In this document: positions 1-12,852 of the stretch, in pieces
How positions within the stretch are numbered: position 1 is the first letter of the stretch
How the letters are laid out: the number at the start of each line of letters is the position of its first letter
Virus record (IMG/VR): IMGVR_UViG_3300012920_000340
Coordinates: 1-21,329 of that record
Source of the DNA: a virus
Length of the DNA stretch: 21,329 nt
Reading direction: 5' to 3' (one strand)
The notes under the pieces: generated by a model
Seen by the model: the letters and a program-made list of their open reading frames with translations, nothing else
The model's database searches: none
What the model was told of the DNA's origin: nothing
Translations under genes and position numbers: made by a program

Positions 1-75
1 CTAAATTTCAAAATTTTTTTCATAGTTACAATATATTTTACCTTGTCGTATTTAGTCTGTACGATGTGAGTAACT

Positions 76-93
76 AGATACACTTGTGTAACT
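76..93. promoter_or_regulatory. Operator-like dyad over the first early promoter
   Basis: This is an 18-bp near-palindrome, AGATACACTTGTGTAACT, with one mismatched pair around a central TT. Its right half CTTGTGTAACT (83-93) recurs at 920-930, and a related inverted half-site AGTAACACAAGG lies at 3183-3194. It overlaps the -35 box proposed at 84-89, as a repressor site would. No binding protein can be shown from the sequence; the MarR-like protein at 1156-1614 is the obvious candidate. Confidence 0.4.
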
Positions 94-112
94 AACAATA
101 GTGTGAGATAAT
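84..112 (+). promoter_or_regulatory. Host-type sigma70 promoter, early leader
   Basis: TTGTGT (84-89), a 17-bp spacer and GATAAT (107-112), with TG at 104-105 one base before the -10 box, form an extended -10 promoter. Transcription would start near 119, just ahead of the small reading frame at 130. A second promoter with the same -35 box, spacing and extended -10 lies at 921-949, which strengthens both. A phage of this type needs host RNA polymerase for its first transcripts. Confidence 0.5.
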
Positions 113-895: not shown

Positions 896-930
896 AGTAA
901 CACACGGGCGTTAGAAACCCTTGTGTAACT
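896..930. promoter_or_regulatory. Operator-like dyad over the second early promoter
   Basis: AGTAACACACGGG (896-908) and CCCTTGTGTAACT (918-930) are inverted copies matching at 11 of 13 positions, nine bases apart. The right half contains the -35 box (921-926) and shares CTTGTGTAACT with the dyad at 76-93. This fits a repressor site but could also be an RNA hairpin. The DNA-binding candidate encoded nearby is the MarR-like protein at 1156. Confidence 0.45.
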
Positions 931-949
931 GAAAGGATTATGCTATAAT
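921..949 (+). promoter_or_regulatory. Host-type sigma70 promoter before the regulator-integrase genes
   Basis: TTGTGT (921-926), a 17-bp spacer and a perfect TATAAT (944-949) with an upstream TG (941-942) make a strong extended -10 promoter. Start of transcription is expected near 956. That lies just inside the 53-codon frame starting at 950, so either that frame begins at an internal Met (1010) or it is read from longer transcripts. The promoter would drive the MarR-like gene and the integrase. Confidence 0.6.
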
Positions 950-1111
950 ATGATAGAACTAAATCTTTATTTTTGGAAGCTGGCAGTAATCAGCTATCAA
1001 AATTTAAATATGAAGTTTTGCTGTTATAAGGATGGACCAGATACAGTAATCGAACTAGGTAGATTTGAATTTTATATCATACCTCGACATTCAGTATCTT
1101 TTAATTCCTAA
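950..1111 (+). CDS. Small protein of unknown function (53 aa)
   Basis: ATG at 950 to TAA at 1109-1111 gives 53 residues. The second half, DGPDTVIELGRFEFYIIPRH, has the look of a small beta-rich fold. AAAGGA (933-938) lies 11 bases before the start. The TATAAT box at 944-949 ends at the A before this ATG, so transcripts from that promoter would begin inside the frame. Those transcripts could only use the internal ATG at 1010, which would give 33 residues. I recognise no family. The frame sits directly ahead of the regulator gene. The real start is uncertain. Confidence 0.4.
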   Translation: MIELNLYFWKLAVISYQNLNMKFCCYKDGPDTVIELGRFEFYIIPRHSVSFNS

Positions 1112-1155: not shown

Positions 1156-1614
1156 ATGTTACTTCTAAACGCCTTGACTACTAAAAGTCCGTTACAGGAT
1201 TTTTTATTTAATGCAGTCGAAGCACAAGAAACACACAATACTACTTTTACTGTTAATCACATGTGTATACTCAGAGAGTTATACGTTGCACATCTATACT
1301 TTCAAGACGGAAGGTTTGATACGAACGTAGTACCTTTGAAACACATAGAAGAAAAATATCGTGTACCCAAATACATAGCTTCACGTAACGCTAAGATGTT
1401 ATCTACTGAAGGTATCAAAGATAAGACTATCAAAGGTGTTACAGGAACTAAAGGGTTACGAGAAGGGAAAGGGTTCTTAACTATAGTGCCGCTTTCAGAA
1501 AAAAATACTATTGAAGGAGCAGCTTTCGATAGTCGTAACAAAGGAATGAAGCTCACAAAGAAAGGAGAAAGGGTTTGTGAGATTTTATTTCAATCAATTA
1601 AAAGGCAAGTGTAA
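1156..1614 (+). CDS. MarR-like winged-helix regulator, putative lysogeny control protein
   Basis: This 152-residue protein reads like a winged helix-turn-helix. A helical N-terminal half is followed by PLKHIEEKYRVPKYIASRNAK (about 60-80) as the likely helix-turn-helix, and then the wing and closing strand, DSRNKGMKLTKKGERV (125-140), which resembles the D-R-x-x-x-x-L-T-x-x-G pattern of MarR-family proteins. AAGAAAGG (1141-1148) is a good ribosome site seven bases ahead of the ATG. The stop overlaps the integrase ATG (TAATG), so the two are translationally coupled. Next to an integrase, downstream of a promoter overlapped by a dyad, a role as repressor or as an integration/excision control factor is likely. 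The family match is by eye; no ligand or target site can be assigned. Confidence 0.55.
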   Translation: MLLLNALTTKSPLQDFLFNAVEAQETHNTTFTVNHMCILRELYVAHLYFQDGRFDTNVVPLKHIEEKYRVPKYIASRNAKMLSTEGIKDKTIKGVTGTKGLREGKGFLTIVPLSEKNTIEGAAFDSRNKGMKLTKKGERVCEILFQSIKRQV

Positions 1615-2880: not shown

Positions 2881-2965
2881 GGCCCGATGGCGGAATGGTA
2901 GACGCAACGGACTTAAAATCCGTGCCCTTTTGGGAGTGCTGGTTCAAGTCCAGTTCGGGCTACCA
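2881..2965 (+). tRNA. tRNA-Leu (anticodon TAA), probable attP core
   Basis: The cloverleaf is complete. The acceptor GGCCCGA pairs with TCGGGCT, followed by discriminator A and an encoded CCA. The D stem GCG/CGC encloses GGTAGA. The anticodon stem ACGGA/TCCGT encloses loop CTTAAAA with anticodon TAA. A long variable arm contains CCC/GGG, as in class II leucine tRNAs, and the T arm GCTGG-TTCAAGT-CCAGT is standard. G1-T72 is a wobble pair. It reads UUA, a frequent leucine codon in this AT-rich genome. Its place between integrase and polymerase suggests that it carries the crossover sequence for integration into the host's own tRNA-Leu gene, restoring it. The exact core cannot be set without the host sequence. 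Confidence 0.93.
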
Positions 2966-3004
2966 ATACAAAGGACTAGAATATACTTGTACTTATTTAT
3001 GTCT

Positions 3005-3046
3005 AACTGTCGTACAACTGTCGTATTATGGCGTACAGGTACGACA
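3005..3046. repeat. Cluster of TGTCGTA/TACGACA motifs, candidate integrase arm sites
   Basis: AACTGTCGTA occurs twice in tandem (3005-3014 and 3016-3025), 11 bp apart, so both face the same side of the helix. An inverted TACGACA follows at 3040-3046, within a short palindrome CGTAC-AG-GTACG (3032-3043). Two more TACGACA copies lie at 3215-3221 and 3227-3233, 12 bp apart. Clustering beside the tRNA and integrase fits arm-type integrase (or excisionase) binding sites. This is a pattern-based proposal. Confidence 0.45.
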
Positions 3047-3056
3047 CAAGGCGTAA

Positions 3057-3135
3057 GTTTTTGTGAGTGGCACGTAACGGGAAAGACTTAAAATCTCTTA
3101 ACATCTCGAAACACACGTGCCGCTTACTCAAAAAC
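3057..3135. repeat. Long imperfect inverted repeat between tRNA and RNA polymerase
   Basis: GTTTTTGTGAGTGGCACGT (3057-3075) is an imperfect inverted copy of the sequence at 3115-3135 (ACGTGC, CGCTTACTC, AAAAAC), with two unmatched bases and a 39-base spacer. It could be a hairpin between the tRNA and the polymerase gene or part of attP architecture. The interval 2966-3252 contains no gene that I can support. Confidence 0.4.
3108..3120. repeat. 13-mer GAAACACACGTGC, copy 1
   Basis: The same 13 bases occur at 5800-5812. The two copies lie in the intergenic regions on either side of the phage RNA polymerase gene. They may be part of a regulatory site or phage promoter. The surrounding bases are less similar. 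Confidence 0.4.
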
Positions 3136-3182
3136 ATAAGTAAATAGCCCATTATCAGGGGTATATTTACACTCTCTCAATA

Positions 3183-3210
3183 AGTAACACAAGGGTATCT
3201 ATTCCTTGTG
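3183..3210. promoter_or_regulatory. Operator-like site upstream of the phage RNA polymerase gene
   Basis: AGTAACACAAGGG (3183-3195) closely matches the left arm of the dyad at 896-908. CACAAGG (3188-3194) and CCTTGTG (3204-3210) form a perfect 7-bp inverted repeat with a 9-base spacer. On the reverse strand TTGTGT with TAAATA 17 bp away (3164-3169) could be a weak leftward promoter. The site is 43 bases before the polymerase start, where a lysogenic repressor would act. Confidence 0.35.
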
Positions 3211-3252
3211 AAAATACGACAACTTTTACGACACGTTTTTGGAGTAATTGGT

Positions 3253-5799
3253 ATGGAAAATACACTGAAAGACTTACTTGAAGTAGGTATTGGCGGTCAT
3301 GCTAAACATGAAAGCAAAGAGACTTACCTCAAGAAACTAGATAGAGAACTAGAACTAGAAGAAAAAATGATGACGGATGGAAGAGATTTGTTCATGCGTC
3401 AGTACAGAAATAAGAAGCAGAAGCAAAGAGATAGCTCAAGCATATATGGTATACAGATGTTGAAGGCCAGCATCCAACCTATATCAGATGCAATAAGAGA
3501 GTATGTAGGTAAATCATTCTCAGGTGGTAGAGGTAGAATAGATAAATCAGCTCACTATCTTAAGATGCTTGACCCAGATACTGCAGCATACATAGCACTA
3601 AGAAGTGTGCTAGATAGTATAACTCTCAGACAAACTTTAAACAAGGCAGCCATGAGAATATCAGGATGTCTCGAGGACCAAGTAAGGTTTACCAAATTTG
3701 AAAAGGAATGTGAGCCGCTGTTTAAAGTGGTATCAAAAAGTCTAAAGGGTAAGCAGAGTTATTTATATAAACATCGTATTATGGTGAGATACATGAACAA
3801 AGCTAACGTAGTTTGGGATGCGTGGCCAAGCAATGACAAACTGCATCTTGGTACAAGATGTATAGATTTTATCAGAGAACATACTGGTATTATCGAGATA
3901 GAAAAGAAGAGGATGGGTAAGAATAATACTCCATTCTTTGTAACAGCTACGCCTAAAACACTGGATTGGATAGAGAATAAACTAGCCAAAACCAGCGTGC
4001 TTCAGCCAAGCTTTTACCCTACAATTATTGAACCTCAGAAATGGATACATCCATTCAGAGGAGGGTATCACTCACCGCTCATACGACAAATGACACTGAT
4101 AAAAACTAGAAACCAAAACTATTTATCAGAGATGTCTAATAGAACTGAGGAGATGAAGCCAGTTTATGATAGCACTAACGCACTTCAAGATACTGGATGG
4201 CGTATAAATTCTAAGGTGCTGCAGGTGCTGGATACTATGTATTCTCAAAACCATGTAGTAGGTAAGATACCTACAAAGTATAACCATGAAAAACCTGCTA
4301 AACCTAACAACTTACAAGGTAAGGAGTTTGAAGAGTGGTTAAAAAATAATAAGGAAGAGTGGATAAACTGGAAGAGAAGAGCAACAAAGATTGATGATAT
4401 AAACCACGCTCAAACATCTAAGCGAATGCAAATGACTAAGATATTGGAGCTTGCAAAAGCTAGAGAGAATGAACCAGAAATATTTTTTCCTCACCAGTTA
4501 GACTTCAGAGGTAGAGCGTATCCGATACCAATGTTTCTTAATCCTCAAGGTATAGAATACTCACGTGCTTTATTAGAATTTAGTAAAGGTATGAGGATGG
4601 GTAGCAATGCAGACAGTGCAAGGTGGCTAGCTATACATGGAGCAAATCAATATGGTGAAGATAAATGCACACTTGATGAAAGAGTAGAGTGGGTAAAGAA
4701 TAACCAAGAAGAAATATTACAATCCGCAAAAGAACCTTTGACTTGTAACTTTTGGAAAACTGCAGACAAACCTTTTTGTTTTCTTGCATTTTGTTTTGAG
4801 TGGGCTGGTTACATAGCTAATGGTGATAATCATTTAACACATATACCAGTGTCAGTTGATGGTTCATGTAATGGTCTACAAATATTTAGTTTACTATTGC
4901 GTGATGAGATTGGAGGTGAAGCAACAAACCTTATACCAAGTAGTAAGCCTCAAGATATTTATGGAATAGTTGCAGATAGAACTATTAAAATTCTTAAGGA
5001 AGAAGTTGATGAACCATTTAGAGAAAAATGTAAATGGTCCAAAAAACAAATGGCTGATATGTGGCTGTCAGTTGGTATTGATAGAAAGATTTGTAAGCGG
5101 CCAGTTATGATAGTTCCTTACAGTGGCACAATGTACAGCTGCAGGGAATACATAGAAGATTATCTAAGAGATGATGCTAAGACAAATCCATTCGGTGATG
5201 ATTTACTTTATCCTACAATTTATTTAGCACAAATTATTTGGCAGCAGATAGATACCACAGTTGTGAAAGCAAGAGAAGCTATGGAGTGGCTCAAGCAAGT
5301 AACAAGATTAGCAGCACTTGAGGACTTACCTATTACATGGAGTACGCCTTCAGGGTTTCAAGTCATTCAAGCATACAGAGAAGTAACAGCTAGAAGAATA
5401 GAAACTAAAATGTCAGAGGGTATTGTTAAGTTAAGTCTACAAGAAGATGGGCAACAACTTAATAGACGTAGACAAAAATCAGGTTGCTCTCCTAACTATG
5501 TACACTCACTTGATAGTGCAGCTATGGCTCTTACTGTATGTAAAATGAAATCACAGGGAGTACATCACTTCGCTATGGTTCATGATAGTTATGGAGTACA
5601 CGCAAGTAATGTACAAAAATTATCTAAATGTTTACGTCAGGTATTCGTAGAAATGTTTCAGGATGATTTACTTGAGAAGTTCAGAGATGAAATCTATGCA
5701 CTGCTTAGTGTAAAGAACCAGAAAAAAATACCTCCTTTACCAGCTAAAGGTAATCTCAATTTAGAAAAGGTTTTAGATAGCGATTATTTCTTTGCATAA
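3253..5799 (+). CDS. Single-subunit (T7-type) DNA-dependent RNA polymerase
   Basis: This 848-residue polymerase would transcribe the phage's middle and late genes. All hallmarks are present: motif A VDGSCNGLQ with catalytic Asp536, motif B RKICKRPVMIVPY with Arg611, Lys615 and Tyr623, motif C VHDSY with Asp778, and the C-terminal FFA resembling the FAFA end of T7 RNA polymerase. The region matching the T7 promoter-specificity loop is about 721-745. I chose ATG 3253 because GGAG (3241-3244) lies eight bases ahead; an in-frame GTG at 3208 has no ribosome site and lies in the repeat region. The gene stands alone between two intergenic regions that share a 13-mer, and directly follows the integrase-tRNA module. 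Confidence 0.97.
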   Translation: MENTLKDLLEVGIGGHAKHESKETYLKKLDRELELEEKMMTDGRDLFMRQYRNKKQKQRDSSSIYGIQMLKASIQPISDAIREYVGKSFSGGRGRIDKSAHYLKMLDPDTAAYIALRSVLDSITLRQTLNKAAMRISGCLEDQVRFTKFEKECEPLFKVVSKSLKGKQSYLYKHRIMVRYMNKANVVWDAWPSNDKLHLGTRCIDFIREHTGIIEIEKKRMGKNNTPFFVTATPKTLDWIENKLAKTSVLQPSFYPTIIEPQKWIHPFRGGYHSPLIRQMTLIKTRNQNYLSEMSNRTEEMKPVYDSTNALQDTGWRINSKVLQVLDTMYSQNHVVGKIPTKYNHEKPAKPNNLQGKEFEEWLKNNKEEWINWKRRATKIDDINHAQTSKRMQMTKILELAKARENEPEIFFPHQLDFRGRAYPIPMFLNPQGIEYSRALLEFSKGMRMGSNADSARWLAIHGANQYGEDKCTLDERVEWVKNNQEEILQSAKEPLTCNFWKTADKPFCFLAFCFEWAGYIANGDNHLTHIPVSVDGSCNGLQIFSLLLRDEIGGEATNLIPSSKPQDIYGIVADRTIKILKEEVDEPFREKCKWSKKQMADMWLSVGIDRKICKRPVMIVPYSGTMYSCREYIEDYLRDDAKTNPFGDDLLYPTIYLAQIIWQQIDTTVVKAREAMEWLKQVTRLAALEDLPITWSTPSGFQVIQAYREVTARRIETKMSEGIVKLSLQEDGQQLNRRRQKSGCSPNYVHSLDSAAMALTVCKMKSQGVHHFAMVHDSYGVHASNVQKLSKCLRQVFVEMFQDDLLEKFRDEIYALLSVKNQKKIPPLPAKGNLNLEKVLDSDYFFA

Positions 5800-5812
5800 G
5801 AAACACACGTGC
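5800..5812. repeat. 13-mer GAAACACACGTGC, copy 2
   Basis: This is an exact second copy of the sequence at 3108-3120, starting at the first base after the RNA polymerase stop codon. It lies about 10 bases ahead of the promoter-like GACACTATA. Confidence 0.4.
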
Positions 5813-5816
5813 TTCT

Positions 5817-5840
5817 ATTACCCGACACTATATAATATTA
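5817..5840 (+). promoter_or_regulatory. Candidate promoter before the ssDNA-binding protein gene
   Basis: CCGACACTATATAATATTAG (5822-5841) contains GACACTATA (5824-5832), the same nine bases as the core of the SP6 phage promoter and close to the T7 consensus end CACTATA. It also contains TATAAT (5831-5836), but no good -35 lies 16-18 bp upstream, so a phage-polymerase promoter is somewhat favoured over a host one. The position, right after the polymerase gene and before the replication genes, is where the first phage-polymerase promoter is expected. I found no convincing second copy in this window. Confidence 0.35.
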
Positions 5841-5864
5841 GACTCAACACTTTTTGGAGAATGT

Positions 5865-12647: not shown

Positions 12648-12852
12648 AAAACTATTTACCGACACCTTAAAGACTAACGAAATTACTCCTATGCCTCTAA
12701 TAAAAACAAATTTGTTAGAGGCTTTAGATAGCAGGTTTCCTGAGAAGTCAGCTGATTTAAGTTGGAGTGAAAAAGAAGTCTGGTTTAAAGCTGGCCAAAG
12801 GTCAGTTGTAAATTTTTTAATTAAAACACTTAAAGAACAAGAAGAAGAATAA
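12640..12852 (+). CDS. Hypothetical protein (70 aa)
   Basis: ATG 12640 overlaps the previous gene, and the TAA shares a base with the next ATG (TAATG). The central stretch LLEALDSRFPEKSADLSW, followed by SEKEVWFKAGQRSVVNFL, looks conserved in style with small proteins of other T7-like marine phages, though I cannot name a family. It ends in an acidic EQEEE tail. It has no membrane segment and no visible active site. Confidence 0.75.
   Translation: MIKKLFTDTLKTNEITPMPLIKTNLLEALDSRFPEKSADLSWSEKEVWFKAGQRSVVNFLIKTLKEQEEE

Follow-up and report, generated by a model that had tools for sequence, protein, structure and literature searches.

In the T7-like phage LUZ100, a gene for a MarR-type protein and the integrase gene (int) are co-transcribed from a host promoter, host polymerase is proposed to read this cassette through into the RNA polymerase gene, and the MarR protein is proposed, with reference to earlier work on temperate T7-like phages, to repress the phage polymerase during lysogeny; no lysogens were obtained (PMC10134795). 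T7-like cyanophages integrate, yet no stable lysogens of them were obtained, and the study reported no repressor homologues (PMC8776855); we find that those cyanophages carry a MarR gene beside int. For phage HTVC022P, high early expression of MarR in lytic infection was interpreted as aiding takeover (PMC12753301). MarR genes are annotated upstream of int in HTVC200P, HTVC119P, HTVC021P, HTVC109P, HTVC019P, CRP-113, S-SRP02, P-SSP7 and LUZ100. The question that we address is whether int-bearing T7-like phages are truly temperate and what represses them (PMC10134795, PMC8776855).

We analyzed a 21,329-nucleotide stretch of viral DNA (IMG/VR record IMGVR_UViG_3300012920_000340; hereafter the window), in which an open reading frame lies between an early region and an integrase gene. 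A prior sequence-only reading had proposed this frame as a candidate lysogeny switch on the premise that T7-like pelagiphages lack a candidate repressor. That premise is outdated, because T7-like phages were known to have a MarR regulator 5' of int: the gene is annotated beside int in many relatives, and the idea of a MarR-int switch is already published for LUZ100 (PMC10134795). What is new is a diverged subfamily of the regulator, a set of concrete predicted operators with a link to a phage promoter, and a same-branch prophage bearing the marks of tRNA-dependent lysogeny. We consider it probable (roughly 0.7) that the regulator is a divergent MarR lysogeny repressor that acts through palindromes of about 20 bp in a temperate T7-like phage. 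Feature coordinates are collected in Table 1.

Table 1. Features of the window, with the evidence on which each assignment rests
Feature	Position	Strand	Evidence or remark
Predicted operator, 20/20 match to TAGWWACACNNGTGTWWCTA	75..94	.	early region
Predicted operator, 18/20 match to TAGWWACACNNGTGTWWCTA	912..931	.	upstream of regulator-int cassette; shared 20-mers
Extended -10 element TGCTATAAT, putative cassette promoter	941..949	+	direct sequence reading; adjoins operator
Conserved small ORF (53 aa) that opens the cassette	950..1111	+	relatives' ORFs at same place
MarR-type winged-helix regulator, 152 aa	1156..1614 (incl. stop codon)	+	AlphaFold2 (AF2), structure match, profile match
Tyrosine integrase, 407 aa	1614..2837	+	Pfam PF00589, E 9.9e-21
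Complete phage-borne tRNA-Leu(UAA)	2881..2965	+	predicted replacement of broken host gene, by analogy with AG-914-F14
TGTCG/ACGAC repeats, candidate integrase arm sites	3008..3045	.	similar repeats in L019, L026, L027
Predicted attP core CTTAAAA, tRNA-Leu(UAA) anticodon loop	3087..3093	.	identical 7 bp at AG-914-F14 junction
Weaker operator-like site, 15/20 match	3106..3125	.	core 3108-3123, 3 mismatches
Predicted operator, 18/20 match to TAGWWACACNNGTGTWWCTA	3182..3201	.	upstream of polymerase gene; shared 20-mers
ACGAC repeats, candidate integrase arm sites, opposite side of core	3216..3232	.	
T7-like RNA polymerase, with ATG 3253 as revised start	3253..5799	+	PF00940, E 4.9e-110; start by L019 alignment
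Predicted operator, 18/20 match to TAGWWACACNNGTGTWWCTA	5798..5817	.	abuts first phage promoter after polymerase gene
Putative phage RNA polymerase promoter TTACCCGACACTATATA	5818..5834	+	conserved position in relatives
Second phage promoter-like element, 2 mismatches	12655..12671	+	also in L059 at 16222

A diverged MarR-type regulator directly upstream of the integrase

The regulator frame opens with ATG, and its stop codon TAA (1612-1614) shares one base with the integrase ATG (1614-1616), an overlap that the sequence-only reading had described correctly. Homologues stand directly upstream of int in the IMG/VR contigs L019 (51% identity) and L026 (43%) and in a prophage of AG-914-F14, a single-cell genome of an uncultured alphaproteobacterium (58%), with int immediately 3' in each; because of this, sequence comparison identifies ORF 1156-1614 as a real gene. 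Searches with the 152-residue protein alone returned no match in Pfam, none by tblastn in 50,697 phage records and no relative in IMG/VR, with only phrog_9665 at E 0.12 in PHROGs and chance-like matches among PDB sequences, the best of them designed Pizza proteins. Relatives were reached by using the neighboring RNA polymerase as the query, which led to same-branch contigs (L019, L020 and L022), and a broader polymerase profile gave 37 loci.

AlphaFold2 produced a useless model from the single sequence (pLDDT 34.8) and, given an alignment of 12 homologues, a confident winged helix with the flanking helices of the MarR family (pLDDT 84.8, pTM 0.80). The best 50 Foldseek matches in the PDB were MarR-type regulators, at modest E-values (from 5e-3), and among the matches listed by VIA-align nearly all were MarR-type winged helices, with E. 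coli MarR at Z 11.2 (1.5 Å over 77 residues, 23% identity). MepR was matched at 1.8 Å over 81 residues, and the top viral structure matches were phage MarR proteins and P-SSP2 gp0.7. PF12802 was matched by 8 of the 12 alignment members and phrog_9665 by all 12, although the window regulator itself reached neither beyond the values given above. Compared profile to profile, the window subfamily and ten known T7-like MarR proteins gave Prob 96% and score 56, against Prob 9% and score 23 for the best of 100 column permutations, indicating homology to the phrog_9665 regulators. Because the fold matches and the profile comparison agree, we place the regulator, on sequence and modeled structure, in the T7-like MarR family as a strongly diverged member, kin of the regulators found upstream of int; the winged helix first proposed from the letters is thus borne out. 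Pfam gave no XRE/lambda-type helix-turn-helix and no CI peptidase domain, either of which would mark a CI-type repressor, and the fold matches MarR-type proteins.

The window shares the layout of the MarR-integrase module of temperate T7-like phages (LUZ100 gp10-gp11, HTVC019P, HTVC200P, P-SSP7 gp0.7; phrog_9665), in which a protein of MarR fold is encoded directly 5' of int and co-directionally, int lies 5' of a T7-like polymerase gene, and a tRNA-Leu is nearby in several members. It differs in the length of the regulator (152 aa versus about 110), which has a longer N-terminus and a wing insertion, and in its divergence beyond the reach of database models. The tRNA of the window follows int on the + strand, whereas in LUZ100 and HTVC200P it lies between MarR and int. 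Across the loci, tRNA-Leu was seen on the minus strand at the MarR-int junction in L002, L004, L009, L035, L039, L044, L048 and L051, and on the plus strand after int in the window, L005-L007, L031, L033 and L036.

Polymerases among the most similar to that of the window belong to the Stopavirus/Fussvirus pelagiphages (HTVC011P, HTVC041P, HTVC025P, Gjalp). Like the window, HTVC011P, HTVC025P and HTVC041P have tRNA-Leu after int, and members of this group carry a divergent MarR-like frame 5' of int that is annotated as hypothetical or as another protein. Their regulator is only remotely similar to that of the window and, unlike in the window, the RNA polymerase of HTVC025P, HTVC041P and Gjalp is split into two frames.

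The gene had been expected only in integrase-bearing relatives, and its distribution tracks that of int. Among Pelagibacter records, tblastn detected 22 with an HTVC019P-type MarR and 22 with its integrase, the same 22 by name, and whole-record HMM searches of the int-less phages HTVC031P and Eistla recovered neither gene; the phages in this comparison are related and do not represent independent events. HTVC142P and HTVC168P, whose polymerases are among those similar to that of the window, are absent from both tblastn lists. ProddE (L003) has int and lacks MarR; the interval from its int to its polymerase gene encodes a CI-type repressor (4867-5637), as though CI had moved into the vacated repressor slot.

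A small ORF and a putative promoter at the start of the cassette

The first gene of the cassette is a conserved ORF of about 54 residues, with 68% identity between the window and the AG-914-F14 prophage (L067 3227-3391), 40% with L026 (353-508) and 30% with L031 (4323-4508), and with no match in Pfam or PHROGs. Similar-sized frames stand at the cassette start in LUZ100 (gp09), L039, L044, L035 and L048, where alignment is too weak to argue for homology. The sequence-only reading had placed a promoter before the cassette. An extended -10 element makes one plausible; its -35 (TTGTGT, 921-926) is poor, which is why a consensus promoter scan did not list it. At position 950 the small ORF's ATG directly adjoins this element, in an arrangement that looks alike in the AG-914-F14 prophage, and a transcript from the putative promoter would therefore begin within the ORF; either the cassette promoter or the small-ORF start is misassigned. 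Between the early region and the cassette (540-890) lie about 350 bases without a convincing ORF or an Rfam match.

Predicted operators recur at control points, one of them abutting a putative phage promoter

We compared four control regions: those of the cassette (800-960), the polymerase gene (2966-3252), the polymerase-ssb interval (5800-5864) and the left end (1-129). The 20-mers common to them gave a sum of best pair matches of 94, compared to 82.9 +/- 1.8 in shuffled sequence, and 0 of 200 shuffles reached 94. The palindrome TAGWWACACNNGTGTWWCTA at up to 3 mismatches occurs 4 times in 21.3 kb (0.23 expected), but this pattern came from the same sites, so that the region-sharing shuffle test is the fairer one. 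The sites first named at 896-908/918-930 and 3183-3195 therefore exist and are related beyond chance, 896-908 being a left half-site beside the predicted operator 912-931. The half-sites described as near the polymerase gene (3183-3210) are real, and their placement can be refined: alignment indicates that the polymerase most likely starts at ATG 3253 and not at GTG 3208, so that they lie upstream of the gene, and the equivalent sites at 75-94 and 5798-5817 had been missed.

Relatives have palindromes of their own, different in sequence, at the corresponding control points. In HTVC041P, TTGCACNNGTGCAA occurs at 1473, 1497, 4040, 4095, 4146 and 6809 (6 found versus 0.44 expected); L031 has seven copies of TGCACNNGTGCA (0.26 expected), and L026 two exact copies of GTAGTGCTTGCACTAC. 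The Stopavirus/Fussvirus palindromes as a group (TTGCACNNGTGCAA or GACACNNGTG) occupy the same places as those of the window and differ from its operator in sequence. The core CACNNGTG (CAC-NN-GTG) ranked first for enrichment among 64 split palindromes, being 14.5-fold denser in control regions than elsewhere, with 24 of 60 matches falling in 4.5% of the sequence (p=3.6e-17, a statistic that ignores relatedness); this count covered 24 phages or fragments, in which MarR and int were seen wherever the upstream region was present. The region-sharing test was not significant for AG-914-F14, and automatic palindrome discovery yielded no convincing or shared operator in LUZ100, HTVC019P, CRP-113 or P-SSP7.

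The element TTACCCGACACTATATA, which resembles T7-class promoters, stands in matching position after the polymerase gene in L019, L020, L024-L027, L031 and L059, on the + strand only. The SP6 promoter reads ...GACACTATAG. In LUZ100, phage promoters are found at both equivalent places, 5' and 3' of the polymerase gene. The repeated AACACACGKG motif was also considered as the phage promoter and was ruled out, because TTANCCGACAC is conserved there in relatives with unrelated palindromes. In five phages with differing operators (the window, AG-914-F14, L019, L026 and L031), the predicted operator abuts the promoter, its center lying 17.5-21.5 bp upstream of the promoter CAC, and a bound dimer would therefore sit on the promoter's upstream edge. 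To judge from sequence, these operators are newly described here, and one of them is tied directly to a phage promoter.

A related prophage is integrated within a host tRNA-Leu(UAA) gene

When 84,980 species genomes were searched, AG-914-F14 proved to encode a polymerase with 85% identity across its C-terminal half, within a 36.7-kb T7-like prophage (G005:C5 61683-98375; L059, L066, L067). On one side, host genes identified by sequence (rpsD, purB, map and others) run to within about 200 bp of the polymerase gene, and the other end of the element carries the regulator, int (48% identical to the window integrase) and a complete tRNA-Leu(UAA), followed by host genes. The host tRNA-Leu(UAA) is split at the 7-bp core CTTAAAA, and an intact tRNA-Leu gene is restored when the flanks are joined. 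The AG-914-F14 relative is thus an integrated prophage, in which the polymerase gene lies at one end and the regulator-int module at the other. Apart from the phage's own copy, no intact tRNA-Leu(UAA) was found in the assembly, which may be incomplete. In L024, another IMG/VR contig, the polymerase gene is preceded by an apparent 5' tRNA-Leu half (anticodon CAA; 50-130), possibly the left end of another prophage.

The window matches this prophage in its tRNA-Leu(UAA), its CTTAAAA core and the flanking TGTCG/ACGAC repeats, and by analogy we infer that the window phage integrates as the AG-914-F14 relative does. The complete tRNA-Leu at 2881-2965 was ruled out as attP, because the phage tRNA is intact in the prophage, whose junction core (CTTAAAA, 7 bp) is distinct from it. 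The prophage looks like a case of tRNA-dependent lysogeny outside the Actinobacteria, in whose phages that mode was described (Guerrero-Bustamante and Hatfull 2024, PMC10865867), here in a T7-like phage of an alphaproteobacterium. A short core and a host tRNA that is not rebuilt are seen in the AG-914-F14 relative; the window shows only the matching core and tRNA.

Proposed mechanism and alternatives

MarR-family regulators act as dimers on palindromes of 16-20 bp. We infer that the regulator binds the palindromes of the window and that its binding represses. It would be produced together with the integrase, and during infection transcription by host polymerase would run through the cassette into the RNA polymerase gene. 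Binding to the palindrome before its own cassette would give autoregulation, and binding at two further places, upstream of the polymerase gene and bordering the first promoter that depends on this polymerase, would thereby block the polymerase and its positive feedback. Once the phage has integrated at the tRNA-Leu(UAA) anticodon loop, the polymerase gene would lie just downstream of the host tRNA promoter, with the regulator-int module at the far end of the prophage. The operator that separates the split tRNA from the polymerase gene would then keep host read-through out of it, while the phage tRNA-Leu would substitute for the broken host gene. By analogy, the proposed repressor would resemble lambda-type CI in being autoregulated and in using palindromic operators at early promoters, and would differ from it in having a MarR fold with no CI-like domain and in targeting a phage-encoded polymerase and its promoter.

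A more speculative extension, which we hold to be possible though somewhat doubtful, is that integration is itself part of the switch. With the attP core placed between int and the polymerase gene, integration would cut the latter off from the early cassette and bring it under the host tRNA-Leu promoter, the MarR operator serving as the barrier. Silencing in such tRNA-dependent lysogeny would be part topological and part the work of a fast-diverging MarR repressor, whose private operators would define immunity groups.

The same observations could be read as those of an early-gene timing regulator that acts in every lytic infection, turning down early host-polymerase promoters and helping the handover to the phage polymerase, with its link to int reflecting only shared early transcription. 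Strong early expression of the HTVC022P MarR in lytic infection (PMC12753301) would fit such a role, as would the full predicted operator at 75-94, which belongs to the early region and is remote from both int and the RNA polymerase gene. However, HTVC031P and Eistla, T7-like pelagiphages with no int, are also without the gene and yet need early-to-middle switching, and the MarR and int sets coincide among the Pelagibacter records. A pro-lytic factor should also leave the first phage-polymerase promoter unblocked, yet one operator abuts it; we consider a pure timing role unlikely.

Two further explanations leave the palindromes or the protein with another function. If the palindromes were bound by the phage polymerase or by some host factor, with the MarR protein acting elsewhere, it would be no surprise that they are not evident in every MarR-bearing phage; but their sequence varies among phages while their place and distance from the promoter are kept, as expected for a diverging phage-encoded repressor, and the polymerase promoter TTANCCGACAC stays constant among relatives whose palindromes differ, which makes such a binder quite improbable. 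Small winged-helix proteins serve as excisionases, and a directionality factor that bends attP in place of repressing transcription would suit a gene adjoining int and a site (3182-3201) between the predicted attP core (3087) and the arm-like repeats (3216-3232). We give this very little credence, as the equivalent sites at 75-94, 912-931 and 5798-5817 are far from attP and both structure and sequence match MarR.

Significance

For the question of whether int-bearing T7-like phages are temperate, reading the regulator as a lysogeny repressor supplies one named protein to test in vitro together with four short DNA sites and a phage promoter, and the same branch supplies an integrated prophage. 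Because the family diverges beyond database models, these data also suggest that repressors annotated as hypothetical proteins are common in these abundant marine phages.
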